DNA of 29,921 nucleotides from Baffinella frigidus (Eukaryota; Cryptophyceae; Cryptomonadales; Baffinellaceae), in NCBI GenBank assembly GCA_026770585.1, contig MU646741.1, positions 1-29,921 on the forward strand, given 5' to 3'. The notes under the pieces were generated by a model. It saw only the letters and a program-made list of their open reading frames with translations. It was not told the origin of the DNA and ran no database searches. How positions within the stretch are numbered: the stretch's first letter is position 1; every line of letters starts with the position of its first letter. A program made the position numbers and the translations under genes. Of the stretch, positions 7,165-29,921 are shown piece after piece.

Positions 7165-9962
7165 ATGCCGGGTTCCACTCAAGAGCTCGGCTAGATCGAG
7201 GAGACCTAGCTCTGCCTCGGCCGGGTCTGTCTGGCCATGCTCGCGTTGGCATTCTGGGTGTGTGGTAGAGCGGTGTGCAGAGAAGTTATCTACGAAAATA
7301 ATGAAATAATGCTAAAAATATCATAAGTTCGTACCGAAACCGTCAATTGCCAAAAAATTGTCATTTCTGCGGCCAACTTCTCTGCGCACCGCTCTACAAA
7401 GAATACGGCTTAGGGCTTAGGGTTTAGGGGTTACGACACCTTGGACAGGCGTCGATGCCCTTCTCCCACATCTCCTGTTTCACGTACCTAAATCGGTTTA
7501 GGCCAAGCCGTCGGATTCCGACGTCATTGGCCCAATTCGTACCATAAAAATAGAAGCACAGAAGCGATTTGAGCATTCTGTGAGGGGCTGGTGGTAGTTA
7601 CCACGAGTACCCATCTGCGCTACCCTGCCTGCGTGGAATAGTTGACTCATGAGGGCTGGTGCTAAACTAATCAGACCTAGCTCTGCTTCAGCCGGATTGT
7701 CTGACTATGCTCGCGTTGGCATTCTGGGTGTGTCTGTGCCACTCGGGCGCCTTCAACTTGGACACAGCACAGGTTAAGAGTCTCAAAGCAAAGCGCTCTT
7801 AACCGTAATTTTCATTGTCATCTCTGCTTTGAGACAAACGTCGAGAGTGGAACGTCTCAAAATAAACGTTAAACCTCCGTTAACTTAATGCAACGGTGGA
7901 TGACTTAGTGGAACCTCCGTTAACTTGAGGTAACGGTGGATAACTTAGTGGAACCTCCGTTAACTTAAGGTAACGGTGGATAACTTAACTGGGTAGTTAA
8001 CGTGGAGGGGACCTTGGAGCAGGCGTCGATACCCTTCCCCCACATCTCCTGCTTCACGCCTCCTTGCTCGGATAGCGCGGGGGCAAATGGATCGGGTAAT
8101 TTCTGGCTGACTGCAGTATTGTGCAGTCTTAGCCTTGTCATTTATTTAGGAGGCCTAATTAGATTTACTATGCCCCATTTAATTTCTCCTATTCAATCTC
8201 CTATTGAAAAGGAACCAATTCAGTTAACTTCCGAGATGAAATCGGTGGAGGGGACTTTGGAGCAGGCGTCCATACCCTTCTCGGTTGAATAGGAGAAATT
8301 AGTTAGGGCATAGTCAATTCAATTAGGCCTCCTAATTGAATGAAAACGCTAATAAGGAAACTGATTCAGTTATCTTTCGAGATACAAATCGGTGGAGGGG
8401 ACCTTGGAGCAGGCGTCGATGCCCTTCTCCCACATCTCCTGCTTCACGTAGCACATCGCCTGCAACGTTCAGGGTTCAGGGTTTAGGGTGTAGGGTTTAG
8501 AGTTTAGGGAGTAGGGTGTAGGGAGTAGGGTTTCGGGTTTCGGGTTTCGGGTTTCGGGTTTCGGGTTCAGGGTTTAGGGTTCAGGGTTTAGGGTTCAGGG
8601 TTCAGGGTTTAGGGTGTAGGGTTTAGGGTTTAGGGTTTAGGGTGTAGGGTTTAGGGTTTGGGGTTTGGGGTTTGGGGTTTGGGGTTTGGGGTTTGGGGTT
8701 TGGGGTTTGGGTTTGGGGTTTGGGGTTTGGGGTTTGGGGTTTAGGGTTTAAAGTGTAGGGTGTTCATGTGCACCTTGTTCATGTGCATCGTCCCCATCAG
8801 CTGCGCCACCTGCGGGGGGACACACCTTTGTGAGTATGTTTGGATCTATGTTAGTGAAGATTGTTCGGACGCAGTCTAAAGTTGTCGCCCAGTTGTTGAC
8901 TTTTCACGAACCGTTGAAAGGAGGTCACACGCTTTTGTGACCTCCTTGACCCTGTGATTTCTGTTTTTATGGAGGGGAACCACGCCAGAGCCTTGGAAGG
9001 GGTTGCCAAAAGTCAATTCCTCCTGAGGGCAGTGCTTTTCAAAAGTCAACAACCGCTTTCAGACGCGGTTTTAAAAAATCAACCCCCTCCTGCAATCTGG
9101 CGTGGAAATTGCCGTTTATGGAGGAGGGGGGGGGGGCGCCGTTCATGGCAGAGAGGGGAGAGGAAGGGAGCGGAGGAGTTTTCCACCGTTACCTTAAGTT
9201 AACGGAGGTTCCACTTTTTCTTTGAGACGTCCCACTCTCGACGTTGGTCTCGGTGGGCACCGCTCTTGCACGACGAATCCAACGTTCCACACGGTGGACT
9301 ACGAACCTTTCATCAAAAGTCAACTCACCTGAAGACAATCAACTTTGAAGATTGGGCACCGCTCGTGATCCTGAACGGCAGTCGAGAAGCAAGAGGAATC
9401 TACATGTCGCATGCCTCTGCTATTTCTCTCAAGCCCTGGAGATGAGGGATCCAAACGGTTATGAGCCTTGAGACGACCCCGCTTCGGTACAGGTCCATCT
9501 CCGCAAAAGTATTAATTGATTGCTTTTGGCGCCAAGAAATTTACTACACAAATGCTTTACTATTACTAGTATGACCCAATCGTGTAGTAAATTTCATTGC
9601 ACAAAAGCGATTAATCAATACTTTTGTGGAGATTAAGGTTCTTAATGAGGTTGGGATATCCGAACCGAACTCTGGTTGGTACCCAACCTGGTGTCCCTTC
9701 GTAGCCCGCTGGTGTCCCGTAGCCCGCTGTGTGTGGGGGGGAAGCGCCGTTGATGGAGAGGAGGGGAGGGGAGGGGAAGACGGGGGTTGTTGTTGTACGG
9801 GGTGGATCGCGTGAAGCAGGTTAGGCGCTTGGTTGATGCTCGGTTGTGAGGGCTGGTGGAGGGAGGGGAGGACCTCCTTGCGCTGTTCGTGCGTGAGAGC
9901 CTCCTCCTGCTTTCCGACCCTCAATCCTCAACCCTCAACCCTCAACGGGTTGCCTCAGCCGT

Positions 9963-9994
<32 letters not shown>

Positions 9995-12900
9995 GGTTGC
10001 GGCGTTGAGGCATCGACACCTCACTGCCTCTCACCGCCTCACCCCTGAACCAGGATGACAGAGAGAGTTCTCTTTGCTGTCGACGTGCTCCAGAAGCATT
10101 ACAGGGGTACCTCGCTCATAAGAAAACGTCACCCCCTAGGACCCTACAGTAGGCCTATGCCTAGGGCCCTATGGTGGTCCTAGGGGGGTGGGCGTTTCTT
10201 TTAAGCGAGGTACCCCTGTACGGGTACTCTCACAGTAGATGCGGGAGGGGAAGACCTCCTTGCGCTCTTCGTGCGTGAGAGCCTCCTCCTGCTTCTCGGC
10301 AGAACCCTCAAGCCTCAGCCCTCAGCCCTGAACCCTGAACCCTGGACCCTGGACCCTGAACCCTGCACCCTCGACCCTCGACCCTCAACCCTCACCCTGA
10401 ACCAGGATGACGAGGCGGGCAAGACCTCTAGCTCTGCCCGAGTTAATCTGGTCTCCTCAAAACGAGGAGGGGTGCGCGGTACAAATCAGTCAATTGTTAT
10501 AGTGAAAACGATCGATCGGCCCGACCGAGGCAGAGAGCGGGCCTCCTTGCGCGGTTCGTGCGTGAGCGCCTCCTCCTGCTTTCCAACCCTCAACCCTCAA
10601 CGGGTCGAGGCGTCAACGCGTCAACGCGTCAACGCGTCAACGCCTCAACCCTGAACCAGGATGAGAGGGAGGCTAGCTCTGCTCCACTTGATTTCGTCTC
10701 ATCATTAAAAACATTTAGCCGTCATTATGAGTTTTAAAGGAGGATTTCCAGTACAAATCAACTGTCCATCTACGGCTAAATGTTTTTGATGATGAGACGA
10801 AATCAAGTGGGACAGAGCTAGGGAGGGGCAAACCTCCTTGCGCTGTTCGTGCGTCAGAGCCTCCTCCTGCTTGTTCGCCGGCATCATCGCCGTCATGCCC
10901 CCCCCTGCCGCGAGAGAGGGTATGAGCTCTATCCGAAACGTCGAAATAGTCCCCCCCTGCGAGAGCGAGCATGCCACCCCCTGCGAGAGCGACCGTTGTT
11001 ACTACCCAAATCGCGAACCCCGAACCTTGAACTCCAAACCCTGAATCCTAAACCAGAACGGAGCGCCCCCAGAGAGGCTTACTACACACAATGAGTTTTA
11101 CTGGTATTGTAGAAATGGGCTCCGCGCGGATTTTTACAACGTGAGGTGAGGAGGCCAGGAACGTCAATAAATCGATTTTTTGATGAAAAATCGATTTTGT
11201 GCTATGTTACGGGTGGTTGATTCTATTTTAGGCATCTTGCTCATGCCTAAGATAGCATAAAAGTTCATTTTCGACGTTTTTTTATCTCCTGACCTCATTT
11301 CCTAACCTGACCTTGAATCCGCGCGGAGCCCATTTCTACAATAATATTAAAGCATTCCGCTACCGAGCGAAGTGGGGGTTCGTTTAAAAGAGGGGAACAG
11401 AATCTGGTCTACTCCCACACACTCATCCTGGACGTGACTGGTACAAACCAGGGTTGTTGGGGAAGCGTTGGGGAAGGTTCCTGCATTGTAGCCTTTTACA
11501 AGGTCACGCGGAAGAGTTCATGGCTTGCAAAAAAAACGGACGCGCCGAGGTGAAATAATGGGGGTGCGTCCATCTAAACAACGATTATATTGCACCTGCG
11601 ACCGTCTATGTGCCAATTACGCCTTTCGAACGCATTTTTCTGGATGTGACTTTTTTTTCATGGTCATGTAAAGTTTACATGTACATTGTAAACGTATCAC
11701 GATTGTTTTTGAAAAACAGTCACGCCCGTATACAATTGCCCGTACAACAAGGTTCTTGACTGGACGTGGAAAGCTTTAAAACCCCTTTAAAATCCACTTG
11801 TAGCCTCCCCGAACCCCCACTTCGCTCGGTAGCGGTTGCAGTAATTTTCATTGAATCCAGCGATTTTGCCCCCTGCTACCGCGAGAGAGACCTTTGTAAA
11901 CACTGTAAATAGTATGTAAATAGCACACGATCTTGTTCGCTGGCGTCATCGCGGTCATGCCCCCCCCTGCCGCGAGAGAGGTTATGAGCTATCAGCGAGA
12001 GGCCTTTTGCTGACACGATGCGCCCCCCACGGAGGCTCTGGCAGAGCGCCGATGCCCCCCCCCCTGCGAGAGCAAGAGAGAGGTTTGTGCATACCAACAC
12101 GGCCGCCATGTTCACATGGCGGGCCAAACGGCTTGCAGGATCCCCCACGTGCCCCCTACAGGGGTACCTCGTTCATAAGAAACGCCCACCCCCCTAGGAC
12201 CACCGTAGGGCTCTAGGCATAGGCCTACTGTAGGGTCCTAGGGGGAGGCGTTTTCTTATGAGCGAGGTACCCCTGTACCCCACATCACTATTTAAAACCG
12301 AACATGTAAGGTCTTTACTACACAAAAGATCAAATTTGTACCAGGATAAGGTAAACGTAACCTCGCGCCTGGTACAATTGTTACCGGGCACGAGGTTGCT
12401 TTACCTTATCCTGGTACAAATGTTTACAACCCCACATTTAAATAGGCTCCTCTAGCATTCTCGAGTGGTAAGAGGGCCCATCGCTGTCGCATACCGCCCT
12501 GGTACAGACAAGATACTGTAGCGGCATCGTCGCTCTGCATCAGTCGGGTTGACATAATATTCTAAAGTTGACATGCTGGGTGTACTGTACAAACCCGTCA
12601 ACTTTGGTTTACAAAACCGTCAACTTTGGTTCAACGTTTCCGCTCCAAAGCGCCCGGGCGCACCAAAGTTCATCTCCACAAAAGTATTAATTAATTGCTT
12701 TTGGCGCAACGAAATTTACTACACAAATGCTCTACTATTACTTGTATGAGTGAATCGTGTGGTAATTTTCGTTGCACAAAAGCAATTAATTAATACTTCT
12801 GTGGAGATTAAAATGCTTCGCCTGCATGGACTGAAACTCTAGGAAGAGACCAGCGCCGGTCTCATGTCCACGCTTCTCCCACACGATTGAGAGGACTTGA

Positions 12901-16420: not shown

Positions 16421-18569
16421 CAAGAATGCCCACCTCTGCTCCGGTCTCGGCGTTCCAGATCTTCACGAGTCTGTCTTTCGATCCGGTGACGACCCGCTTC
16501 CCGTCTGCGGAAAACGCGATCGAGACCATGGGGTGATGGGGGTGTTGTTTTGCGGAGGGTTGCTGCAGGATTGGTCTGGGGAAAGGGTGTGAGGAGAGGG
16601 TGGGTTGGCAGGTGCGCACGCTGAAGGGGCATACGAGCACGGTGTACTCGGTCGGATTTTCGCCAGACGGGACGCGCATCCTGAGCGCGTCGGATGACAA
16701 CGTGAAGATCTTTGACGCCGCGACCGGGGCCGAGGTGAGCAGCTTTGTGGGCGTGCGATGAGGGTGGTGGGGTGATGTTGGTTTTCTGCTGTTTTTTTGC
16801 TCACGTTTTGTGTTGGAAGTAGTCTGAGGTGACGGTGCGTTGGCAGGTGTGCACGCTGCGGGGGCACACTGGCGAAGTGTACGAGGTCATGATCTCCCCA
16901 GACGGGACGCGCATCGTGAGCGTTTCGAAGGACAACCTCGTCAAGATCTGGGACGTCAAGACCGGAGCCGAGGTGAGCAGCCATGGAGGGTGCGCTTTGT
17001 GAAGCAAGGATTCGGTTTGGGTTTCAGTGGGGGGGGCGGAGGTGTTGGGCGTTGACGCGTTCTGAATCTGGGCTGGGGTGTTTTGCAGGTGTGCATGGTG
17101 AGCAGCCACTTGGGCAGGGTGTGGTCCGTTGCCTTCTCGCGAGACGGGAAGCGCATCGTCACCGGTTCGAGCGACGCGACCGTCAAGATTTGGAACGCCG
17201 AGACCGGGGCCGAGGTGAGCAGCTTTGTAGGAGTGCGTCGAGGGTGGCGGGCTGGTTGGGGTTTTCTGCAGGGGTTTCGTGTATGCTTCGCCAATAAGTG
17301 CCTTGGAAGTGGTCTGAGGTGACGGTGCGTTGGCAGGTGTGCACGCTGGAGGGGCACACGGAGTTGGTCTTCTCGGTCGCTTTCTCTCCAGACGGGACCA
17401 AGGTCGTGAGCGGGTCCTTTGACAACCTCGTCAAGATCTGGGACGTCGAGACCGTAGCCGAGGTGAGCAGCTTTATTAATAGTGCGGTTTGTTCAGGCGA
17501 TGGGGGTGTTCTGCGGGTGCAGGTCGTTGCCCGCATGTTTCCCCTCGGACGTTAATAGGGTAACGGCCTGAAAATGGGGTAGTTAGGCCTACGGCATTGC
17601 CTAGGACCTCCTACCGTAGGCCGAGCCTTTTTGGTCCTAGGATCCCTCGGCCTACGGTAGGAGGTCCTAGGCAATACCGTATGCCTAACTACCCTATTTT
17701 CAGGCTGTTAGCCTATGAACGTGGTCTGACTACGCGGGAGGGGGTTCAGGGTTTAGAAAATCCCACCGCGACCTGAGGTCGCGTTGGTATAGCCATCTAT
17801 GCTATCTTAAGTCTTGGTTTCATGCCTAAAATAGAACATTCTTGCTCATCTTGAGGATAAGATACCAAAAAAAATCAAACCTCTAAACCTTGGACCTGAT
17901 CTCGCGTAGGAGATGGCGGTGTTGTGACAGGTGTGCACGCTGGCCGGGCACGGCTCGAGGATTCCTGGACATTACTGATACAAGCCTTGGATCATGTCGG
18001 CAGATTCTCAGCTTGGGCGAGCACCACGGCGAGGGCCTCTGCCTCTGCACGGTGGACGAGGACGGAGATCTTGCAGAGGATCAAGACGGGTGGCCCATCA
18101 TTCACCCGGAGTGCCCCGTGCCCGGACACTCGCGTAGCGTGACGCGGGTAGAGTTCAGCGACGACGGCGCGCAGGTCAGGCTAACAGTGGGCGTGGTCAG
18201 GCTAAAAGTGGCGTGGTCAGGCTAAGACGCGCAGTCGTCAGTGCCAGCGAAGACGCGAAAACGGTGCTTCTGTGGGACGTTGCGTCTGGCAGGCGGGTGC
18301 GCCAGTTCGAAGGCGACGAGTTTGCCTTGGTAGAGGGTCTTTCCGATGCGCTCCGGAGGGGCCGCCACGTCCTCACGGCCAGCGGCGACACGCTTCTGAT
18401 CTACGAATGCGGGAAGGAGCAGCAGGACGGGGCGGGCGGTGCGGGAGCAGCTCCCGTGGCGTGCTTCAAGGCGCCGCAGCCCATCATCTCTGTGCGGTGC
18501 CACGGGGCAGCGATCTGCGTGGGGTGCTACGATGGCGCGGTGTGCATTCTGCCCTTCCTCGCTGCCTAA
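15744..18569 (+). CDS. F-box-like/WD40 repeat protein, probably disrupted
   Basis: Exons: 15744-16420 (F-box-like), an inverted WD40 block 16421-16535, 16612-16734, 16847-16972, 17089-17214, 17337-17462, 18004-18174 and about 18235-18569 ending TAA. The middle exons are 41-42 codons, phase 0, one WD40 repeat each (for example GHTELVFSVAFSPDG ... DNLVKIWDVET). Such proteins usually select substrates for SCF ubiquitin ligases (family knowledge). Breaks: a one-base frame slip near 16315, the inverted exon, and a one-base mismatch at the last exon junction (18174/18235). The well-kept motifs suggest recent loss, or assembly error. Confidence 0.75.
16421..16535 (-). pseudogene. Inverted WD40 exon inside the WD40 gene
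   Basis: Read on the minus strand, 16535 to 16421 gives HPMVSIAFSADGKRVVTGSK then DRLVKIWNAETGAE and a GTGGGC donor. It is closest to the plus-strand exon at 17089-17214 but in the opposite orientation. Turning it back joins T-16420 to H in frame, aligned without gaps to other WD40 repeats. It also places the donor next to intron sequence (GATGGGGGTGTT) that intron 5 has near its start. See findings. Confidence 0.85.
16612..16734 (+). CDS. WD40 exon, repeat 2
   Basis: Acceptor GGTTGGCAG, donor GAG|GTGAGC, 41 codons: VRTLKGHTSTVYSVGFSPDG then TRILSASDDNVKIFDAATGAE. One residue shorter than its sisters between S-D-D and V-K-I. The final W of the WD core is F here. Confidence 0.9.
16847..16972 (+). 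CDS. WD40 exon, repeat 3
   Basis: 42 codons, phase 0, acceptor GCGTTGGCAG and donor GAG|GTGAGC. GHTGEVYEVMISPDG ... KDNLVKIWDVKTGAE. Most similar to repeat 5, with which it shares the same upstream intron end. Confidence 0.92.
17089..17214 (+). CDS. WD40 exon, repeat 4
   Basis: 42 codons, phase 0, acceptor GTTTTGCAG. SHLGRVWSVAFSRDGKRIV then TGSSDATVKIWNAETGAE. The GH dipeptide is replaced by SH. Confidence 0.92.
17337..17462 (+). CDS. WD40 exon, repeat 5
   Basis: 42 codons, phase 0. VCTLEGHTELVFSVAFSPDG then TKVVSGSFDNLVKIWDVETV. The preceding intron (17215-17336) is a near-copy of intron 16735-16846, so repeats 2-3 and 4-5 look like a two-exon duplication. Confidence 0.92.
17556..17717. 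mobile_element. Family D palindromic MITE in WD40 intron
   Basis: Near-identical to 2051-2211, with arms GGTAACGGCCTGAAAATGGG and mirrored end. It enlarges this intron (17463-18003) to 541 bp against 112-122 bp for its sisters. Confidence 0.88.
17931..17951 (+). repeat. WD40 exon-start echo
   Basis: A GTTGTGACAG acceptor followed by VCTLAGH, the start of a WD40 exon, which then runs into a stop. The frame-compatible acceptor for the next real exon is GTCGGCAG at 18003, so this is a truncated exon copy. Confidence 0.65.
18004..18174 (+). CDS. F-box/WD40 gene C-terminal exon a
   Basis: Acceptor GTCGGCAG, phase 0, 57 codons: ILSLGEHHGEGLCLCTVDED, then HSRSVTRVEFSDDGAQ, a diverged WD40 blade. 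Joins exon 17337-17462 in frame. Confidence 0.7.
18175..18234 (+). repeat. 20-bp tandem repeat at an exon junction
   Basis: Nearly three units of GTCAGGCTAAAAGTGGCGTG between two GCGCAG words. GT-AG removal leaves the downstream frame one base short. Excising 59 nt instead of 60 would restore SDDGAQVVSASED. Either a non-canonical intron or a repeat expansion that broke the gene. Confidence 0.6.
18235..18569 (+). CDS. F-box/WD40 gene last exon
   Basis: Frame VVSASEDAKTVLLWDVASG, then HVLTASGDTLLIYE, and PIISVRCHGAAICVGCYDG then AVCILPFLAA and TAA. Two to three further beta-propeller strand groups that close the propeller. Confidence 0.78.
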
Positions 18570-21889: not shown

Positions 21890-22448
21890 CCGTGGCAAAA
21901 GTGACTTTTGCTACGCAATTGGAGCAATTACGCTATTGGAGCTATTGGAGCTTTGATCCACCCTGGAGGGGACTTGCGGCCAATTCTCGAATAACCCTTT
22001 ATCGCAAAAGTTGACAGGATTTGTACCACTAAAATACTTATAAGACCGTTTTGTACCAGATCCATTCATCACGACCGCGAATCTCAGATTTCAATGCACT
22101 GAGCCCTCAGTGCATTTCAAGGGGAGTTGACTTAAGAATGCTCAAAATACCCCCACCCTGCCTCCAGGGTGGCAACGTTGTACAGCAGCACGCACGTTTC
22201 TGCGCCCGGTGGGCTGAACCGCCGTGGTGAGCACAGCCGGCGAATGACGGGCCTTTGCCAATTATAGACGTAGAACGCCTCGCCTGGCTGGACAGCAGCT
22301 CGCCTCCCTTCAGCTGTCTTGCGAAACTGGTCAAATTATTTTTTTCCTCCGATCCAAGTCATCATCTGCGAACAAACTGGACAAAGCAAATCCAACTACA
22401 GCTTCCTCGTCACCCCTGCACCCCTTCCGAACGTCAGCGGCGACCATC
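21890..22448 (+). promoter_or_regulatory. Upstream region and 5' leader of the Tcp11 gene
   Basis: Repeat-poor like the other promoter region. It contains hairpins GGCAAAAGTGACTTTTGC (about 21893) and TTTCAATGCACTGAG/CTCAGTGCATTTCAA-type at 22089-22120. The AAAAGTGACTTTT word also forms the hairpin in the 15286-15743 promoter. No TATA box evident. Confidence 0.45.
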
Positions 22449-23289
22449 ATGGCTGAGCATACGGCGGTACCTGCCGACATGCTGGGAGAGCGGGCGATCA
22501 AGAAACAATGCCTGCAGATGGAAAGTCACTTTCCCCCAACCCAGGCCTGGGTCCCTGTCGCCACAGACAACACCGCCGAGTCCATAGAGGGGTTCAACGC
22601 CGGCGAGGGGGAAGGCAGCGAGCGCTGCGCCGTGCTGCTCGGAAAGCGAAATGCCAGCCGCGCCAGCACCCGCAGCAATCGGACGGAGACGCGCGACCAG
22701 GCTCGCACGGAGGCTGCGATCGTGATCCAGAGGAGCTACCTGTTCCGGTGCATGCGCCAATTTCGCTCGCAGATCCACACGCTCGGGCAGGGCGTCCCAA
22801 AGACGGAGCGCGTCAACGCCGCGCACGTCAGCCTGATCGCGCGCGCGCTCCTCCTGCGCATCACGCCGCCCAGCTGTCTATCTCTCTCGCTCGCCCCATC
22901 CGCAGGACGGCCCAGGACGGCGTGCTTCCTGATGGCGTACAAGATGCTCCCGCGCCCCGGCGCCCCGTGGGGCATCCTTAAGGCGTGCGTCGAGGGATCG
23001 TGCGCAGACAGGGTCCACAAGGCCTCCTACCAGCTGACGAAAACCTTCGACGCCTTCGTGCGCGACGCCCTCGCCGCGAGGAACTACATGGGCGCCGGGG
23101 CGCTCACCGCGAGGGAGGCGCTGCACGCTGCGGCACGCGCTGCCTGTTTCTTCCCCCTCCAGCTCCTGGCGTTCAACGAGGCGTACCGCGCGTGGTTCGC
23201 GGAGGTGAACTTTCGGCAGAGCAAACGGCTCCGCTGCAAGCTCGCGGCGCTCGCAATCTGCTGCTCTCATCTGGCGGCGAACGAGGCCG
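22449..23289 (+). CDS. Tcp11 gene exon 1
   Basis: ATG at 22449 begins the only long GC-biased frame. 280 codons plus one base, donor GCCG|GTGAGC (phase 1). Acidic linker around 40-60, IQ-like motif at 93-103, then alpha-helical Tcp11 N-terminal region (YQLTKTFDAFVRDALAA; AFNEAYRAWFAEVNF). A CTGTCTATCTCTCTCGCTC tract at residues 142-152 could be an unspliced pyrimidine tract, but the frame is open through it. Confidence 0.88.
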
Positions 23290-26200
23290 GTGAGCACCAC
23301 GGCCCAAACCCTAAACTCTCACCACTAAACCCTAAACCCTGAACCCAGAACCCCAAACTATAGCCCCTGTAAACCCTAAACCCTAAACCCTAAACCCTAA
23401 ACCCTAAACTCTAAACCCCTAAACCCTAAACTCAACCTGCTGCTCTCATCTGGCTGCGAACAATGACGGTGAGCACCACGGCCACTAAACCCTAAACTTA
23501 AACCCCGAACCCTCAACCCTCAACCCTCATCCGCGCGGATCTGGCTGCGAACCAAGAGCTGGCTGCGAACGAGGACGGTGAGGGCGACGGCCACCAAACC
23601 CTTGACCTGAACCCAGAACCCTAGACCCTCCAACGGGAATTGATAGGGCCTGTGCCGCACCAGTCCGGTCGGTCGTCATACCATCAGGGCACAAATAACA
23701 CGCGGCCGGACGTGTCCCCGGCCACACGAGGCTATCCATGCGAACAGAATAAAAGGACATTTTAAAATTTATGGGGAAATGATCACGTTTCCGTACGGAT
23801 GTCCGTACGGAAACGTGATCAAATGCCGACTTCTGGCGTGTTTCCTGGACAATAATCCAATAATTAACTTATGAATCTGTTCGCATGGATAGCCTCGTGT
23901 GGGGAGGCGGGTTCCCGGGGACGAATCCCGGGGTGGCTGCGAACCAAGAGCTGGCAGCGAACGACCCTTTAGGTCCTTTAGATTTTAAATGCTCCCAACA
24001 TATGCCAACGACCCTTCCGTGGAAAAGACTGCAGAGAAAGCATTTTTGCTTTCGGATCGCGTTTAGCTCTCCAGTGCAGAGGCTCGTGAAGAGGGGATAC
24101 AGGGTGGTTCTCTTGGGGTGTTTGAGTTGTCCCACGTGGGTACGCGCTCGCACACACACACCGAACCCAAGTCAGCCTTGATGAGACACATGGTATCCCA
24201 TGGTCGAAGTATAGGAGCTCCAACCACGGATACCCCACAAAATCCGGTGTTTGAGTTATCCCATAGAGGAGGACCCGATTTTGTGCGGATCGCGTTTGGC
24301 TCTCCACCACGAGGACGGTGAGGGCGAAGACCCGAACCTGTTACTCCTAAACCCAAACCCCCAAACCAACTCCTAAACCCAAACCCAAAACCCTAAACCC
24401 TAAACCCTAAACCCTAATCCCTAAACACTAAACACTAAACTGGCGAGCGCGATGGAAGCGGGGGTGGGGGGCTGTGGGCGGCGCTGCGGAGTGGACCCTA
24501 GACCTGAACCCTGAACCCTGAACCCTGAACCCTGAACCTAATCCGTACACCCCAAGCCAAGCACACCAAACCTCGAACGCTAGAGACTCTGAGTGGACCG
24601 CACTAAGTGGACCACTTTCAGGGGGGCTGCGGGCCGCGCTGCGGAGCGGGATGCGGGATGTGCGCGCCACGCTCGCCACGTACCCCCCGGACTGCACGGA
24701 CAGGCAAGCGCCGGGGCACCGGCAAGATCTGGGGCACAGGAAAGATCTGGGGCGTCGCGCGGGGGGGGAGGAGCGCGTGGGTGTCTCGGCTGACAAGCTG
24801 TCGGGCATGTTGGGTCTTCCTGGTGGGGGAATGGGGGGAGGGGGCAGCGGTGTGTGTGTGGTGGGGGGGGGTGAGGGGGGGGGGCATCTCTCATCTCTCT
24901 CATCTCTCTCATCTCTCTCATCTCTCGATCTCCCATCTGATCTTGCGTGCCCCGCGCCACCGGCGAGGAGGAGGGTAAACCCAAAACACGAAACACGAGA
25001 CCCGAACCTCGAAACCCGAACCCCGAAACCTGAAACCCGAACCCCGAAACCTGAAACCCGAAACTCGAACCCCGAAACCCGAACCCCCAAACCCAAACAA
25101 AAACAAACACCTGAACCCAGACGAAAACACACCAGGTGGTGCTGTGCGGGACTGTGGTCGAGTGGCAGGACCCACCTGCTCTGCGCACCTTCTTCACAGG
25201 TGTGGATTTATTGTCGGCCGATAGACTTTTGGATCAGTTACTCCTAGGCGAGTTTATCTCCGATATCGAATAAAAGTATTCACTTTCTGCCTCCTCTAAA
25301 GTTGATTATTGCCTTGAAATTGTAACCACCTTTGATTTTACACGCCAAAATTGTGTATTTTCAGGGTGATAATCAACTTTAGACGTGGCAGAAAGTGGAT
25401 ATTTTTGTTCGATATCGGAGATAAGAGTACAGGGGTTACTCGCTATCAAGAGCACGCACCGCCCCTAGGGTAGTCCTATGATCCTAGCGATACGGTAGGA
25501 CCCTAGGAAGGTCGACTGTGGTCGCGTGGCAGGACACGCCAGCTATACGCACCTTATTTACAGGTTTGGGTTTGAAGTTAGGGGGTTACGGGGTTACGGG
25601 TGAGGGGTGAGGAGTGAGGGTTGACTGTGGCTGCTCCGCGTTTAGGGTTTAGGGGGTAGGGTTTGGGGTTGAGGGGTTGGGGTTGAGGGTTGGGAGTTGT
25701 AGGGGTTTGGCATGTCCACTCTGATCATTAGCGTTCTAATAGCTCCGACAACAATAAACGCCCCCCCCCTCAGCGCAGAGCACCCTAACCCCTAAACCCT
25801 AAACCCTAAACCCTAAACCCTAAACCCTAAACCCTAAACCCCAGACCCTAAACTCTAAACCCTAGACCCCTGAACAGAGCATCCTGCCCCTGCGCAGAGC
25901 ACCCCAAACCCCACACTTTAGACCCTAAAGTCTAAACCCTCACGTGCTCTGTCACCCTAAACCCTTCACCCTCAATGAAAGCAATCCACTTGATGCGGCC
26001 CACTTAATAGGGTCCACTTGTCGCCATAAGTGGCCAACACGATGCACCTACGCCTAGTAGGGACAGGCGGCCAGACCATGACGCGTTCCTGTCAGAAACA
26101 CAGCCTCGCCGTTTCCGGAAACGGAAACAGGGCCCTCGCTCTGTTCAACTTGTTGGGAGTGTGGCCTATATATATTCAATGGACGGTTTATTTGGACGTG

Positions 26201-29200
26201 ACGGTAGTAAGTTTTTGTACCGGCTTGTAATTTTTTGAACCGCCTTCTTACAGCCCGGTACTTATTTCGGGACGTGACGGTAGTAGAAGGACACACTTGG
26301 AACGGGTCCGTTTTTGGAGCCATTGACCCCTTCCCATTCCGTTCCTTGTTTCCCCCACCGCTGAACCCTACACCCTGGGGCAGAGCACGTGAGCACCCAG
26401 GCGCGCTTCTACGGCATGTCAGACCTGGTCTGCCCCTACACCCTCACCCCTAACCCATAAACCCTAAACTCTAAAACCCTCAACGCTAACCCCAACCCTT
26501 GAACCCTAAACCCTAAACCCTAAACCCTCAACCCTAAACCCTAAACCCTAAACCCCACACCCTCAACCCCAAACCCTCAACCCTCAACCCTCAACCCTCA
26601 ACCCTAAACTCTAAACCCTGAACCCTAAACCCTAAACCCCATACCCTAAACCCTAACCCGTAACCCGTAACACCTAAGGCATGGGAGCTGACGATGAACC
26701 CTAAATCCTAAAACTCTACCCCCGAACCCCTAAGGCATAGGAGACAACCCTAACCCCTAACCCCTAACCCCTCAGGCATGGGAGCTGACGATGAACCCGT
26801 ACTTCGCGGTTGACGTCGACTTCAGCGACGGCTATTTGTGCAAGGTACGCCACACAACGGGCAAAAGAGATTGATAATTTATTGCCAAACAACCAGCGTC
26901 AGCGCCGCACATGCTACGCATTGTGTCACTACTGTACCCCGTGTCGGCCGCTCATACGAGCATTTTCCGGATGGATTCTAACTCCACCTCCTACCTTAGT
27001 GGTCATAAGTAGCCAGGGGAGCGTTCTGTCCTCTGACGAAGCTTGAGTTGAGAATGCGTTTGAGGTTCGCGGTTGACGTCGACTTCAGCAACGGATATGC
27101 GTGCAAGGTAGAGCGCTGTGCAGAGAAGTTGGCCACGGGAAATAATGGAAAATCGAGAAATTGGAGCCATTTTGTCAACTTCTGAGAAATTTGGTACCAG
27201 AAATTTCTCAAAAGTGGACAAAATGGCTCCAATTTCCCCATTTTCTCATTTTTCGGTGGTCAACTTCTCTGCACCGCGCTCTACGGACCTGGTTCAGGGT
27301 TTAGGGTTTCGAACTTTGCGTTCTGGGTCCGGGTGAAGTTTGTGTCGCCAGCACCGGAGAAACGAAGTCTCCTCTTCCTGATGCGTGATTGGGTCCGTTT
27401 CCGAAGAAGGTTCTCCCTCAACCCTAAACCATAAACCAGGCGGCAACGCAGGCCACCCAGGCACGCTGCACCCCTTAGCCTACGGTAGGAACCCCCCCTC
27501 CTCCTACGACGGTTAAAACAAAAAGGTCTTGAGAAGTCGTAGGAGGGGGGCTCCTACCGCAGGCAATCCGTAGGCTTTAAGTACCTCGCTGGCATTAGCT
27601 TTTTGCATGAAGCTGACCCTACACCCTGGGGCAGAGTGCAGCGTGCCTGGGAGGCCTGCGGTGCCGCTTCGACGAAGCGTTCTGGGCTACCATCACCCAC
27701 GACCTCTCCAAACCGCCGTGTTTGATTTCATAGGGAATTGGAGCGTTCTCGTCAGAAATTAGGCTATCGGCTCTAATTCCATACGGGCGGGGGGGGTATT
27801 TAACCTTAATACCCCCCCGCCCGTATGGAATTTTACCCCCCGCCCGTATGGAATTATTCAGGTTACATACTCGCCCCGACTGAATGGCGGCAATCGTCAG
27901 GCGACAGCGCAGGCACGCCGGACGCTCGATGACGCGTTCTGGGCCATCATCACGGACGACCTCTCCGAAGAGCCGCACGCCAACTTCTCGCGCGTGTTTC
28001 CCCTTAGTCACCGCTCAGTGGACCTCGCAGGTGGTCCACTCTCACTAACGCTCCAATCCCGTGAATTGCCAGGCGACCTCACAGGCCCGTCGGACGCTCA
28101 ATGAAGCGTTTTGGGCCACTATCACAGACGACCTCTCCGAGCAGGTCGTCTCTACGTCCTGAACCCCTTCACACCCTAAACCCTAAACCCCTCTACATCC
28201 TAAACCCTAAACCCCTCTACACCCTACACCCTGCTAAACTCCTCTACACCCTAAACCCTACACCCCTCTGTACCCTAAACCCTGAGCCCCTCTACACCCC
28301 ACACCCTAAACCCCGACTGCACCCTAAACCCTAAAACCCAGCCTTCCCGAGCAGCCCAACGCCAACTTTTCGCGCGTGTTTTCCCTCCTGCAGCACGTCG
28401 TGGAGCAGGTCCTATCCGTTCCTAATTTCATTGAAACTGGACTAGCAACTCCTAATTAAATTTAGTTAGCCCTAGTTAAAACCGTGGTCCAACTCTCATG
28501 ACATTGGTCCGAATCCTGTGACATTGGTCCAACTCCTTGGTCCAACTCCTGTGACGAAACCTTGGTCCAACTCCTGTGACAATAGGGAGACTTTTGAACA
28601 GCCGCATGCCAATTTTTCTGCTGCAGCACGTCGCCAAACAGGTTCATACAAAAAGCCAGCGTTAGAGGAGGACATATTTGGACGCGACTTTGTATAAAAC
28701 TTGCAATAGATGGCTTTACAACCCATTTAAAATAACGGTTGCAATAGATGGCTTTACAAACCATTTAAAATAACGGTTGTAATCTTCTGTACCAGAGTCG
28801 CGTCCAAATAAGCCCCCCTCTAACGTTGGCATTCGGCATCCAGGTTTGTAAAGTGGCGCCGGGGTCCGAATCCCCTGTCTGTCATAGGTCTCGTGCACGC
28901 AACAAAAACCGTTACAACAAAAACCGTCACACAAAAATCGTTACACGGAGCCCCGCGTCTTTCGTTGGGCTTACTGAAACAGATTGCATGCTTGCCCACA
29001 GGTTTGTAAAGTGGCGCCGGGGCCCGGGGGGCGCTGGAAGAGGCACCAGGATGCTGGGAAGGCTCTCGAGCAGGTTATGAATCCCGCGAGCCCTGTGGGT
29101 ATCTAGACTCAAAGGGCACCTGGTCTGTACAGTTATGAGAACTTGCTGGTTGTGCCCGCGACCACCTCGCTGCCCTCTCTCGCTCTCTCGCTCAAACCCT

Positions 29201-29414
29201 TAAACCCTAAACCCTAAACCTTAAACCCTAAACCCTAAACCGTAAACCGTAAACCGTAAACCCTAAACCCTAAACCCCAAACCCTCAACCTCAAACCCTA
29301 AATCCTTAACCCTAAACCCTAAACCCTAAACCCTAAACCCCTCGCGTGCAGGTGCTGGACCAAGAGTTGCTGGAACAGCAGGCGTACCACCACGCCTTCG
29401 ACTGGCCGGTGCAG
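22449..29414 (+). CDS. T-complex protein 11 (Tcp11) family protein with IQ motif, 3' end outside window
   Basis: Nine exons (22449-23289, 24622-24974, 25136-25199, 26384-26427, 26776-26844, 28073-28144, 28355-28408, 29002-29073, 29352-29414) join in phase into 544 codons. An IQ-like motif (IQRSYLFRCMR, residues 93-103) is followed by FLMAYKMLPRPG and LQLLAFNEAYRAWF, then the Tcp11 signatures in family order: AWELTMNPYFAVDVDF, LNEAFWATITDDLSEQ, NFSRVFSLLQHVVEQ, VLDQELLEQQAYHHAFDWP. Animal Tcp11 proteins are linked to sperm signalling and motility, and algae and plants have homologues of unclear role (family knowledge). The next exons lie beyond 29921. Introns are filled with CCCTAAA-like arrays, hairpin elements and decayed exon copies. 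Only two exons (E1, E2) are long enough to stand out as ORFs. Confidence 0.85.
23310..23530. repeat. CCCTAAA array with exon 1-end echo
   Basis: Telomere-like units C-rich on the sense strand, interrupted at 23436-23482 by a copy of the exon 1 end and donor (CTGCTCTCATCTGGCTGCGA then GGTGAGCACCACGGCC). A second echo lies at 23538-23592, a third at 23933-23967 and a fourth (CGAGGACGGTGAGGGCGA) at 24307-24327. Confidence 0.85.
23722..23902. mobile_element. Family J element, copy 2
   Basis: Same ends and internal GATCACGTTTCCGTACGGA hairpin as 4787-4965, about 95% alike by eye. Inserted between exon 1-end echoes in Tcp11 intron 1. Confidence 0.9.
24330..24545. repeat. CCCTAAA/CCCTGAA array with exon 2 echo
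   Basis: Sense-strand C-rich telomere-like units, with a fragment of exon 2 (GGGGGCTGTGGGCGGCGCTG) at 24466-24493 embedded in them. Confidence 0.8.
24622..24974 (+). CDS. Tcp11 gene exon 2
   Basis: Acceptor CACTTTCAG, entering in phase 1; donor AGG|GTAAAC, leaving in phase 0. The start GLRAALRSGMRDVRATLATY is convincing. The later part (SADKLSGMLGLPGG, then glycine and HLSSLSSLSSL low complexity from five CTCATCTCT units) is open but unusual and may hide an internal intron, for example from the GGTGGGG at about 24822. Confidence 0.6.
24975..25130. repeat. CCCGAAA-type variant array
   Basis: Telomere-like repeats dominated by CCCGAA(A) variants (CGAACCCCGAAACC), starting at the exon 2 donor and ending 5 bp before the exon 3 acceptor. 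They make up nearly the whole 161-bp intron. Confidence 0.85.
25136..25199 (+). CDS. Tcp11 gene exon 3
   Basis: Acceptor ACACCAG, donor ACAG|GTGTGG, 64 nt (phase 0 in, phase 1 out): VVLCGTVVEWQDPPALRTFF. Supported by frame continuity and by a decayed duplicate with its donor at 25515-25567. Confidence 0.65.
25254..25424. mobile_element. MITE-like element with long terminal inverted repeats
   Basis: TATCTCCGATATCGAA...TTCGATATCGGAGATA ends, inner CCACTTTCTGCC and TAAAGTTGATTATT arms mirrored. Confidence 0.85.
25428..25513. mobile_element. Family C element, truncated
   Basis: TACAGGGGTTACTCGCTATC start and CCGCCCCTAGGGTAGTCCTA interior. It lacks the right terminus and runs into the exon 3 echo. 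Confidence 0.65.
25515..25567 (+). repeat. Echo of Tcp11 exon 3 with donor
   Basis: Reads TVVAWQDTPAIRTLFTG followed by a GTTTGG donor, versus TVVEWQDPPALRTFFTG in the exon. Mostly conservative changes and no frameshift, so the duplicate is young or was once used. Followed by G-rich TTTAGGG-like DNA to 25700. Confidence 0.75.
25780..25960. repeat. CCCTAAA array with GCAGAGCAC words
   Basis: Perfect (CCCTAAA)n core at about 25793-25840, flanked by CAGCGCAGAGCACCC and CTGCGCAGAGCACCCC, fragments resembling the exon 4 acceptor region (GGGGCAGAGCAC). Confidence 0.85.
26384..26427 (+). CDS. Tcp11 gene exon 4
   Basis: Acceptor TGGGGCAG, donor CTG|GTCTGC, 44 nt (phase 1 in, phase 0 out): HVSTQARFYGMSDL. 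This choice keeps the frame into exon 5. An alternative acceptor (CACCCAG at 26400) would not. The sequence precedes AWELTMN as in Tcp11 proteins, where a similar helix leads into 'AHEIxxNxxF'. Confidence 0.55.
26440..26775. repeat. CCCTAAA array with exon 5 echoes
   Basis: C-rich telomere-like units on the sense strand, containing GGCATGGGAGCTGACGATGA at 26679-26698 and GGCATAGGAGACA at about 26734, fragments of the exon 5 start, before the true acceptor CCTCAG. Confidence 0.85.
26776..26844 (+). CDS. Tcp11 gene exon 5
   Basis: Acceptor CCCCTCAG, donor AAG|GTACGC, 69 nt, phase 0. AWELTMNPYFAVDVDF then SDGYLCK corresponds to the conserved A-H-E-I-x-x-N-x-D-F segment of Tcp11 proteins. Confidence 0.82.
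26866..26994 (+). repeat. Family H repeat, copy 2
   Basis: Same sequence and same sense relative to the gene as 1759-1897. It begins 21 bp inside the intron after the exon 5 donor. Confidence 0.75.
27066..27108 (+). repeat. Echo of Tcp11 exon 5 end with donor
   Basis: Reads FAVDVDFSNGYACK then GTAG. The family I element starts exactly at the donor TA. Frame intact but the 5' half is missing. Confidence 0.8.
27109..27283. mobile_element. Family I element, copy 2
   Basis: TAGAGCGCTGTGCAGAGAAG ... CTTCTCTGCACCGCGCTCTA ends. The interior GAAATTGGAGCCATTTTGTC...GACAAAATGGCTCCAATTTC is an extra palindrome absent from copy 1. Confidence 0.88.
27440..27713 (+). pseudogene. Decayed Tcp11 exon 6 copy split by family B DNA
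   Basis: 27440-27468 (QATQAR) matches the exon 6 start. 27663-27713 reads RFDEAFWATITHDLSKPP, the exon 6 middle. They are separated by a family B element (27471-27605) and by an inverted copy of the exon-start piece at 27635-27664 (GTGCAGCGTGCCTGGGAGGC). Confidence 0.75.
27471..27605. mobile_element. Family B MITE, copy 3
   Basis: CCCCTTAGCCTACGGTAGGA ... GTACCTCGCTGGCATTAGCT. It lacks the outer left terminus present in copy 1. Confidence 0.85.
27775..27832. repeat. Perfect hairpin with a partial third arm
   Basis: ATTCCATACGGGCGGGGGGG is mirrored by CCCCCCCGCCCGTATGGAAT around TATTTAACCTTAATA. The right arm is repeated once more at about 27834-27855. Confidence 0.85.
27901..28000 (+). CDS. 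Unsplit duplicate of Tcp11 exons 6+7
   Basis: After acceptor AATCGTCAG it reads ATAQARRTLDDAFWAIITDD then LSEEPHANFSRVFPL in phase 0, with no intron where the next copy has one. It is intact in frame to a GT at 28031. It may be a retained alternative exon or a recent duplicate; it lacks the LQHVVEQ end, so the downstream copy is preferred for the main transcript. Confidence 0.6.
28073..28144 (+). CDS. Tcp11 gene exon 6
   Basis: Acceptor TTGCCAG, donor GAGCAG|GTCGTC, 72 nt, phase 0: ATSQA then RRTLNEAFWATITDDLSEQ, the 'AFWDxLxxDLS' core of the Tcp11 domain. Confidence 0.85.
28145..28354 (+). repeat. 210-bp intron of CCCTAAA-like repeats with 8-bp flanking repeat
   Basis: Starts GTCGTC, ends CCGAGCAG, and consists of units such as CCCCTCTACACCCTAAACCC. 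The exon side ends CCGAGCAG and the intron ends CCGAGCAG. The unsplit homologue at 27901 has CCGAAGAG once at the same codons. See findings. Confidence 0.8.
28355..28408 (+). CDS. Tcp11 gene exon 7
   Basis: 54 nt, phase 0: PNANFSRVFSLLQHVVEQ, donor CAG|GTCCTA. It continues the Tcp11 pattern in which D-L-S-x-x-P-x-Y/F-S-R-V is followed by an amphipathic helix. Confidence 0.85.
28484..28633 (+). repeat. TGGTCCAACTCCTGTGAC repeats and exon 7 echo
   Basis: Five imperfect copies of TTGGTCCAACTCCTGTGAC (28488-28585), then 28586-28633, a copy of exon 7 (EQPHANF...) carrying a 16-bp internal deletion and the AAACAG|GTTCAT donor. Confidence 0.75.
28655..28830. mobile_element. Hairpin element with internal 40-bp duplication
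   Basis: Ends GCCAGCGTTAGAGG.. and ..CCTCTAACGTTGGC, next pair ATTTGGACGCGACT/AGTCGCGTCCAAAT. The centre has two tandem copies of GCAATAGATGGCTTTACAA. Confidence 0.85.
28840..28868 (+). repeat. Echo of Tcp11 exon 8 start with acceptor
   Basis: GCATCCAG then GTTTGTAAAGTGGCGCCGGG is identical to the first 20 bases of exon 8, then diverges. Confidence 0.75.
29002..29073 (+). CDS. Tcp11 gene exon 8
   Basis: Acceptor TGCCCACAG, donor CAG|GTTATG, 72 nt, phase 0: VCKVAPGPGGRWKRHQDAG then KALEQ. Matches the stretch in Tcp11 proteins where a helix precedes 'xxxLDxELxxQ'. Confidence 0.75.
29190..29345. repeat. CCCTAAA array before exon 9
   Basis: (CCCTAAA)n with CCGTAAA and CCTTAAA variants, ending 6 bp before the GCGTGCAG acceptor of exon 9. 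Confidence 0.9.
29352..29414 (+). CDS. Tcp11 gene exon 9
   Basis: 63 nt, phase 0, donor CAG|GTGCCG: VLDQELLEQQAYHHAFDWP then VQ, the 'LDxELLxQxxxxGAxD' block of Tcp11. Last exon identified in this window; the gene must continue beyond 29921. Confidence 0.85.
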
Positions 29415-29562: not shown

Positions 29563-29569
29563 AGTGAGG

Positions 29570-29631
29570 GGCTGGACCGAGAGTTGCTGGAACAGCTGGC
29601 GTACCACCACGCTTTAGACTGGCCGATGCAG
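29570..29631 (+). repeat. Second copy of Tcp11 exon 9
   Basis: Reads LDRELLEQLAYHHALDWPMQ with a GTACCA donor. Frame open, conservative changes. An upstream CTCTAG could act as acceptor, so it may be an alternative exon rather than a dead echo. Confidence 0.7.
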
Positions 29632-29639
29632 GTACCACA

Positions 29640-29810
29640 GGGGTTAGGGTAAGGGTTTACGAGTTGTGGCACCCGCCCCTTACTCAAGTTGGCGTGCAGA
29701 GACGTTGGTGTAGGGTTTATGGTTTAGGGCGTAGGGTGTAGGGTTTAGGGTTTAGGGCTTAGGGTTTAGGGTCTAGGATTGAGGATTTAGGACTTAGGGT
29801 TTAGGAAGTT
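29640..29810. repeat. TTTAGGG-like array, G-rich on plus strand
   Basis: Degenerate TTTAGGG/GTGTAGGG units, opposite in orientation to the arrays in the preceding Tcp11 introns. Followed by (CACT)n at 29855-29885. Confidence 0.85.
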
Positions 29811-29921
29811 GGCCTCCGAACTTATGTTAGATTTCCGATATTGTTTCCTAGTGCACGCACGCACGCACTCACTCACTCACTCACTCACTCAATCACTCAC
29901 TCACCCATTCCCTCCCTCCCT

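Follow-up and report, generated by a model that had tools for sequence, protein, structure and literature searches.

Positions 28145–28354 of the window (the whole 29,921-nucleotide stretch of Baffinella frigidus DNA analyzed here) are likely a new intron, judging by its sequence, made mostly of telomere-like repeats and bordered by a short duplication of exon sequence. It splits an exon of a Tcp11-family gene that occurs nearby in an unsplit form.

Structure of the Proposed Intron

The 210-bp stretch (28145–28354, + strand) lies between codons and parts two exon sequences, GACCTCTCCGAGCAG on its left and CCCAACGCCAACTTT on its right. The first half of the split exon, referred to here as copy 2 (ATSQARRTLNEAFWATITDDLSEQ; 28073–28144, + strand), matches PF05794 together with the second half and other exons. 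It ends ...GACCTCTCCGAGCAG at 28144 and is followed by GTCGTC...GAGCAG (...CCCGAGCAG up to 28354) and then by CCCAACGCC..., the beginning of the second half (PNANFSRVFSLLQHVVEQ, then GTCCTATCC; 28355–28408, + strand). Read without splicing, the frame runs for five codons (VVSTS) before its first stop, and retention of the stretch brings in seven in-frame stops altogether. GT-AG ends are present, and removal of 28145–28354, which is presumably spliced out, restores the frame to read ATSQARRTLNEAFWATITDDLSEQ-PNANFSRVFSLLQHVVEQ. An earlier note on this DNA had placed the split at these same positions, and its coordinates are exact.

The filling is a telomere-like array (28158–28339, + strand, sense = C-rich strand) with a higher-order unit of 24 bp; the earlier note had recognized the CCCTAAA-like repeats but had put the unit at 25–35 bp. 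Aligned to the unit TCTACACCCTAAACCCTAAACCCC, the array core is identical in 162 of 182 columns, and TRF gives periods of 24 and 75, with a 17-bp row too. The unit consists of two telomere-like heptamers plus CCCCTCTACA. Its word CCCCTCTAC occurs three times in the window, both strands counted together, every time within this array, and the other arrays of the window match the 24-bp unit at 71%–75% in the best 12 alignments. The filling is telomere-like, but its heptamers make up a degenerate satellite with a 24-bp unit, and a truly telomeric origin, as given in the earlier note, is not established.

Both edges carry the motif CCGAGCAG, once on the exon side (28137–28144, + strand) and once at the 3′ end of the intron (28347–28354, + strand), where it is the source of the AG; this, too, is as the earlier note had it. 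The two copies agree at 8 of 8 positions and, when extended to 13 bp (28132–28144 versus 28342–28354), at 11 of 13, with two mismatches. The motif is found at these two sites only on the + strand of the window, and on the − strand at 2568 and 22635. The array core is separated from one repeat by no more than 13 bp and from the other by no more than 7 bp. Beyond the repeat, the intron start and the second exon half show no match, which identifies the duplicated piece as the end of the first exon half.

Neither AG nor GT occurs in CCCTAAA repeats, which offer CTAAA words over and over; with both dinucleotides missing, this C-rich telomere strand lends itself naturally to filling introns. CTAAA-type words may act as branch points, and the body of the proposed intron has ten CTAAA/CTAAC words. 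In the sense orientation this body contains two AG and one GT (28 and 29 if turned round) and is 67% pyrimidine; its own base composition predicts 2.3 AG, close to the two observed, which speaks against the reading favored below. Also against that reading, AGs precede the acceptor at 28285 and 28340, both well before it, and the donor GTCGTC looks weak against the usual consensus. Terminal inverted repeats of at least 6 nt are absent, the longest inverted match in the 20 nt around both borders being 3 nt, a length equaled in 2,981 of 3,000 random segments. No inverted pairs of at least 18 bp were found at the intron borders either.

The Tcp11 Gene and Copies of Its Exons

The split exon belongs with an upstream Tcp11 exon (AWELTMNPYFAVDVDFSDGYLCK; 26776–26844, + strand), the end of which has a second copy at 27066–27107, and a downstream one (VLDQELLEQQAYHHAFDWPV; 29351–29411, + strand), copied at 29567–29630. 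With exons joined by hand, the split exon plus VLDQELLEQQAYHHAFDWPV scores 25.3–25.5 bits over 64–65 amino acids against PF05794, below the cut-off of 27; adding AWELTMNPYFAVDVDFSDGYLCK brings the three exons to 28.7 bits. Without the second half of the split exon the score drops to 15.0 bits, which shows that the match draws on both halves. The large region of the first exon (22248–23339) has no Pfam match, and protein searches for homologues of exon 1 (22452–23309) and of the joined Tcp11 composite returned nothing at E ≤ 0.001. Two DNA patterns of repeat elements had no matches in viral contigs, and one had none in genome contigs; from both sets the genome's own or very near records were possibly omitted. 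Rfam at gathering scores and ARAGORN returned nothing in the window.

The sister exon, copy 1 (ATAQARRTLDDAFWAIITDDLSEEPHANFSRVF; 27901–28004, + strand), has no intron. It aligns with copy 2 at 83% (27892–27968 versus 28064–28140) and 85% (27965–28004 versus 28347–28386), with nothing between its two aligned pieces; it runs straight through the intron site, in keeping with the read-through duplicate that the earlier note had placed at 27901. Over 33 codons the two copies differ by ten silent and six replacement changes (dS 0.615, dN 0.084), an omega of 0.14 (Fisher p-value 0.0004) that would be unexpected had either copy been nonfunctional from the duplication onward. Scored with the sequence that follows VF in copy 1 itself, copy 1 reaches 18.0 bits against Tcp11, under the cut-off, compared with 24.6 when the end of copy 2 takes its place, and the end of copy 1 therefore looks diverged. 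No constraint is seen in the exon pairs 29352/29569 and 26803/27066, which are younger and less diverged (omega 1.48 on six changes and 0.77 on four).

Two further copies of the block are incomplete. The third (27669–27718, + strand) lies upstream, is truncated, has no array at the site, and shows weak similarity beyond CTCTCC; its comparison with copy 1 over 15 codons (omega 0.36, p-value 0.33) is uninformative. The fourth (28596–28641, + strand) comprises the second exon half only; its similarity begins at GAACAG, no more than 6 bp from the splice junction. A continuation of this half-copy upstream into exon or intron sequence was set aside, the score beyond GAACAG being 0. As it starts at the junction, the exon border may predate its duplication, which is somewhat against a simple single insertion. 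Before the half-copy stands a tandem repeat, TGGTCCAACTCC... (28485–28575; periods 20 and 13), a placement that parallels that of the telomere-like array before the second half of copy 2. The exon-copy comparison omitted the self-match and rows with a mostly telomere-like query, and the direct-repeat scan masked arrays and simple repeats and retained direct repeats only.

Elements of other kinds lie among these exons. In the second copy of the FAVDVDFS exon, an inverted-repeat element, GTAGAGCGC...GCGCTCTAC (27108–27284), begins precisely at the donor; taking it out with one TA leaves GCAAGGTACGG, close to the GCAAGGTACGC of the other copy (26845). The element resembles an insertion that duplicated a TA within a 5′ splice site, with the empty site apparently preserved in the paralogous exon. 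The exon-like sequence GCGGCAACGCAGGCCACCCAGGCACGCTGCAC occurs as an inverted pair (27440–27471 and 27636–27667) around a dispersed element at 27470–27603 that is also present at 13134–13267 and 14496–14636. Another dispersed element, with ACCTCGCTCATAAGAAA near its ends, is seen at 1524, 10109, 12252, 20094, and 20180 (five exact matches, against none in 100 shuffles), and its translation, for example YRGTSLIRN, recurs among the open frames.

Edge Repeats and Chance

The repeat at the edges of the proposed intron is not a chance match. When every GT on the + strand of the window was paired with every AG 60–400 nt downstream, only six of 36,524 pairs had an upstream edge repeat of at least 8 bp, and the pair at 28145–28354 was among them. 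It was likewise one of six among the 2,517 pairs (0.24%) in which an AG precedes the GT. Two of 1,819 AG-ending + strand 8-mers equal CCGAGCAG, and these are the two at the intron edges. In one survey, as far as part of its text goes, each of the 213 introns examined is bordered by direct repeats (PMC11782384), and an edge repeat alone therefore proves little.

Other Telomere-Like Arrays in the Window

Telomere-like arrays number 21 in the window by one scoring scheme (run with no shuffled control), and they occur in both orientations. None was scored between 11054 and 21103, an interval that holds WD40 repeats in + strand open frames (16537–17552). Several arrays are enclosed by duplications. 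Around the array at 26702–26774, 24 bp of an exon start are exactly duplicated (26678–26701 and 26775–26798, + strand); around that at 23303–23436, an exon end plus donor is duplicated over 45 bp at 91% identity (23258–23481, + strand, second copy from 23437). The array at 29707–29805 (sense = G-rich strand) has the 8-bp repeat AAGTTGGC on either side (29686–29693 and 29806–29813, + strand) and interrupts no recognized exon.

With words containing telomere-like 5-mers trimmed, edge repeats of at least 8 bp were found in 30-bp flanks at five of 26 arrays, compared with 2.8% of random segments (p-value 0.0007; 4/25, p-value 0.005, once the array of the proposed intron is left out), and in 40-bp flanks at seven of 26, compared with 5.2% (p-value 0.0003; without that array 6/25, p-value 0.0014). 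Flanks of 20 bp show no enrichment (1/26 versus 1.8%, p-value 0.37), and the single array concerned is not the one at 28158–28339, a result against the favored reading. A stricter filter, in which words containing telomere-like 5-mers were dropped, gave 4/26 versus 3.25% (p-value 0.009), and in a list of 23 arrays six had repeats of at least 8 bp, versus about 3% of mismatched flank pairs. The lists of 23, 26, and 26 arrays are hand splits of the 21 scored, and since the arrays are partly hand-split and tandem duplicates are not independent, these p-values are indicative only.

The process that places or grows these arrays seems to duplicate adjoining exon sequence by variable lengths. Lengths that vary in this way (24–45 bp) would be no worse explained by template switching or break repair than by target duplication of the transposon type, and a transposase that duplicates a target of fixed length would fit them less well. 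No claim is made for an orientation bias: the C-rich strand is the sense strand in 12 of 15 arrays of the Tcp11 region and in only three of seven between 7404 and 11054, counts made by eye with 26434–26772 taken as one array and the 7404–11054 gene assumed to be on the minus strand throughout.

A Second Telomere-Like Apparent Intron

Another apparent intron of this kind, 314 nt long and in another gene, lies on the − strand at 8460–8773, with the C-rich strand as its sense. Read from 8773 to 8460 it is AAG|GTGCACATGAACACCC...GAACGTTGCAG|GCGATGTG, telomere-like apart from a dozen bases at its start and a few at its end. The sole AG is that of the 3′ splice site, and GT is found only at positions 1 and 308. 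At the start of the intron, GTGCACATGAACA echoes TGCACATGAACAAG, the end of the exon. The exons around it are putative, match no family, and rest on near-identical nearby copies of one of them.

Three near-identical exon-like copies, KQEMWEKGIDACSK, are found on the minus strand at 7438–7486, 8011–8058, and 8401–8450 (~92%–96% in the pairs shown), one of them just after the 314-nt intron. An exon-like block, KQEEALTHEQRKEV, occurs four times in the minus-strand reading (9860–9915, 10243–10294, 10539–10584, and 10820–10872); three copies directly adjoin telomere-like arrays, and the fourth continues into MTAMMPAN.

Origin of the Intron

The explanation that we favor, to which we give a little less than an even chance, is that telomere-like DNA was inserted or synthesized at a staggered break in the exon, that the ends were filled in, and that the duplicated AG allowed immediate splicing. 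The starting state would have been a Tcp11-family gene with tandemly duplicated exons, and CCCTAAA-type DNA would have entered the coding sequence of one copy at CCTCTCCGAGCAG/CCC. Repair of the staggered break, with gap filling, would leave 8–13 bp of the exon on either side of the insert. The donor would consist of the repeat copy in the exon plus a GT at the edge of the insert, and the intron copy would provide the acceptor AG; with donor and acceptor supplied in this way by the repeat copies and the insert edge, splicing would restore the original coding sequence. The C-rich telomere strand would be tolerated, as a pyrimidine-rich sequence with CTAAA/CTAAC words and almost no AG or GT. The direction of change, gain in copy 2, and the part played by break repair are what we infer here. 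The earlier note had argued for gain by insertion with target duplication. The contrast of split and straight-through copies, the telomere-like filling, the coding constraint between the copies, and the non-chance repeat would fit a gain, and the edge repeats of other arrays and the second apparent intron also favor our account; a transposon-style origin of the duplication fares less well, given arrays elsewhere with duplications of 24–45 bp, far above the 4–12 bp of known break-repair introns, a length difference that also counts against the reading favored here.

Those same exon-edge duplications enclosing arrays, 24 bp exact (26678/26775) and 45 bp at 91% (23258/23437), are what an array-linked tandem duplication would leave. 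Unequal exchange or template switching between arrays and exon edges, followed by deletions, would yield a half-exon, an array, and a half-exon, and the short repeat would be the overlap of two partial exon copies instead of a target duplication. Four full or partial copies of one exon block, a half-copy at 28596 that begins at the junction, and the imperfect extension of the repeat to 13 bp, on the exon side only, all point the same way. Such a history is nevertheless somewhat unlikely: it requires at least two events, and the array core, at 13 bp and 7 bp from the repeats, is insert-like. Nor is the intron start significantly similar to the natural donor flank at 28409 (p-value 0.17–0.20). 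On these values, the derivation of the intron start from the old 28409 donor flank by internal deletion was set aside.

An old intron that predates the exon duplication, its interior grown into a telomere-like satellite, might instead have been lost from copy 1, either by deletion between direct repeats or by gene conversion from a cDNA. The earlier note had weighed only an RNA-mediated loss; deletion between pre-existing direct repeats is possible as well and would result in precisely the uninterrupted form of copy 1. When introduced into the introns of model reporter genes, telomeric tracts expanded or caused rearrangement, according to part of one published account (PMC6410037). The repeats would still need an origin, implying an earlier gain with duplication. 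At a dS of ~0.6, moreover, an intronic repeat older than the exon duplication would, by rough reckoning, be expected to fall below 8/8 identity, and the upstream copy at 27669 is without an array too, though with weak similarity past the site. We consider such a loss unlikely.

Least probable, and in our view very unlikely, is that the region contains no intron, only decaying exon fragments interrupted by satellite where the transcript skips or truncates: neighboring exon copies that are truncated or losing similarity, internal base loss in the 28596 half-copy, the frame change that results, on a reading of the sequence, when copies 1 and 2 are joined at their nearest splice sites, the weak donor, and the absence of constraint in two younger pairs of exons belonging to this gene (omega 1.48, six changes; 0.77, four changes) would suit this, but the omega of 0.14 between copies 1 and 2 and the precision with which splicing restores frame and Tcp11 match would not.

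Comparison with Known Modes of Intron Gain

The proposed insertion of telomere-like DNA at an exon break has its closest parallels in neointrons ascribed to break repair, which in the sections of the reports considered here (PMC4202315, PMC3443670) are likewise introns in coding sequence with a 4–12 bp copy of the exon end at the opposite end of the intron; repeats of 4–12 bp are given for Daphnia (PMC4202315, in part). The insert described here differs in being a telomere-like satellite, and its intron-free state is seen in a paralogous exon only. Mammalian interstitial telomeric sequences, as treated in portions of PMC2246262 and PMC6410037, are telomere-type repeats inserted at breaks inside chromosomes, a location that the present array may share, sometimes with short insertion-site duplications, and telomeric insertions with duplications are listed at six of 130 rodent and four of 25 primate loci in the part of PMC2246262 drawn on. 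They differ from the present array, which splits a coding exon, is apparently spliced, and has a degenerate 24-bp repeat instead of clean heptamers.

Introners occur in many eukaryotes, some with target duplications of 3–9 bp (PMC9860276, part of the text), and dinoflagellate introners have direct and inverted repeats (PMC7789003, part of the text). In the passages of these two papers, introners resemble the proposed intron in their insertion into exons and in duplications of 3–9 bp able to supply a splice site, and their hosts include algae and dinoflagellates. The exact 8-bp repeat falls within this range and may be a target duplication. In contrast to introners, the proposed intron has no terminal inverted repeats and no dispersed copy of its unit in the window, and the telomere-like arrays of the window vary in sequence and length. 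Intron gain by tandem genomic duplication (PMC3443670, PMC4974935, each in part) likewise leaves an AG-containing exon piece at both intron ends and would suit a region rich in exon duplications, but here the body of the intron is not exon sequence.

No account of an intron gained from telomeric repeats appeared among the titles and abstract openings listed, which took in few subscription journals and are thus weak evidence of absence. Nor did they contain a case in which a telomere-like intron is combined with duplication of the exon edge and with a paralogous exon free of the intron, and the string "telomer" does not occur in the main texts of PMC9860276, PMC4202315, and PMC3443670.

Implications

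If telomere-like repeats deposited in break repair can be spliced at once, one of their strands being almost devoid of AG and GT, they would be a concrete, testable source of introns, one that predicts an orientation bias and would tie the maintenance of chromosome ends to the structure of genes. A broader proposal, which we regard as rather doubtful, is that introns in this lineage have repeatedly been made from telomere-like repeats, with their C-rich strand as the starting material. Arrays landing or growing within genes with CCCTAAA as the sense, poor in AG and GT and well supplied with pyrimidines and branch-like CTAAA/CTAAC words, would be removed cleanly by the spliceosome, the duplicated exon edge supplying the acceptor. 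If true, telomere-type repair would generate introns in the manner of introners, with no transposon involved.
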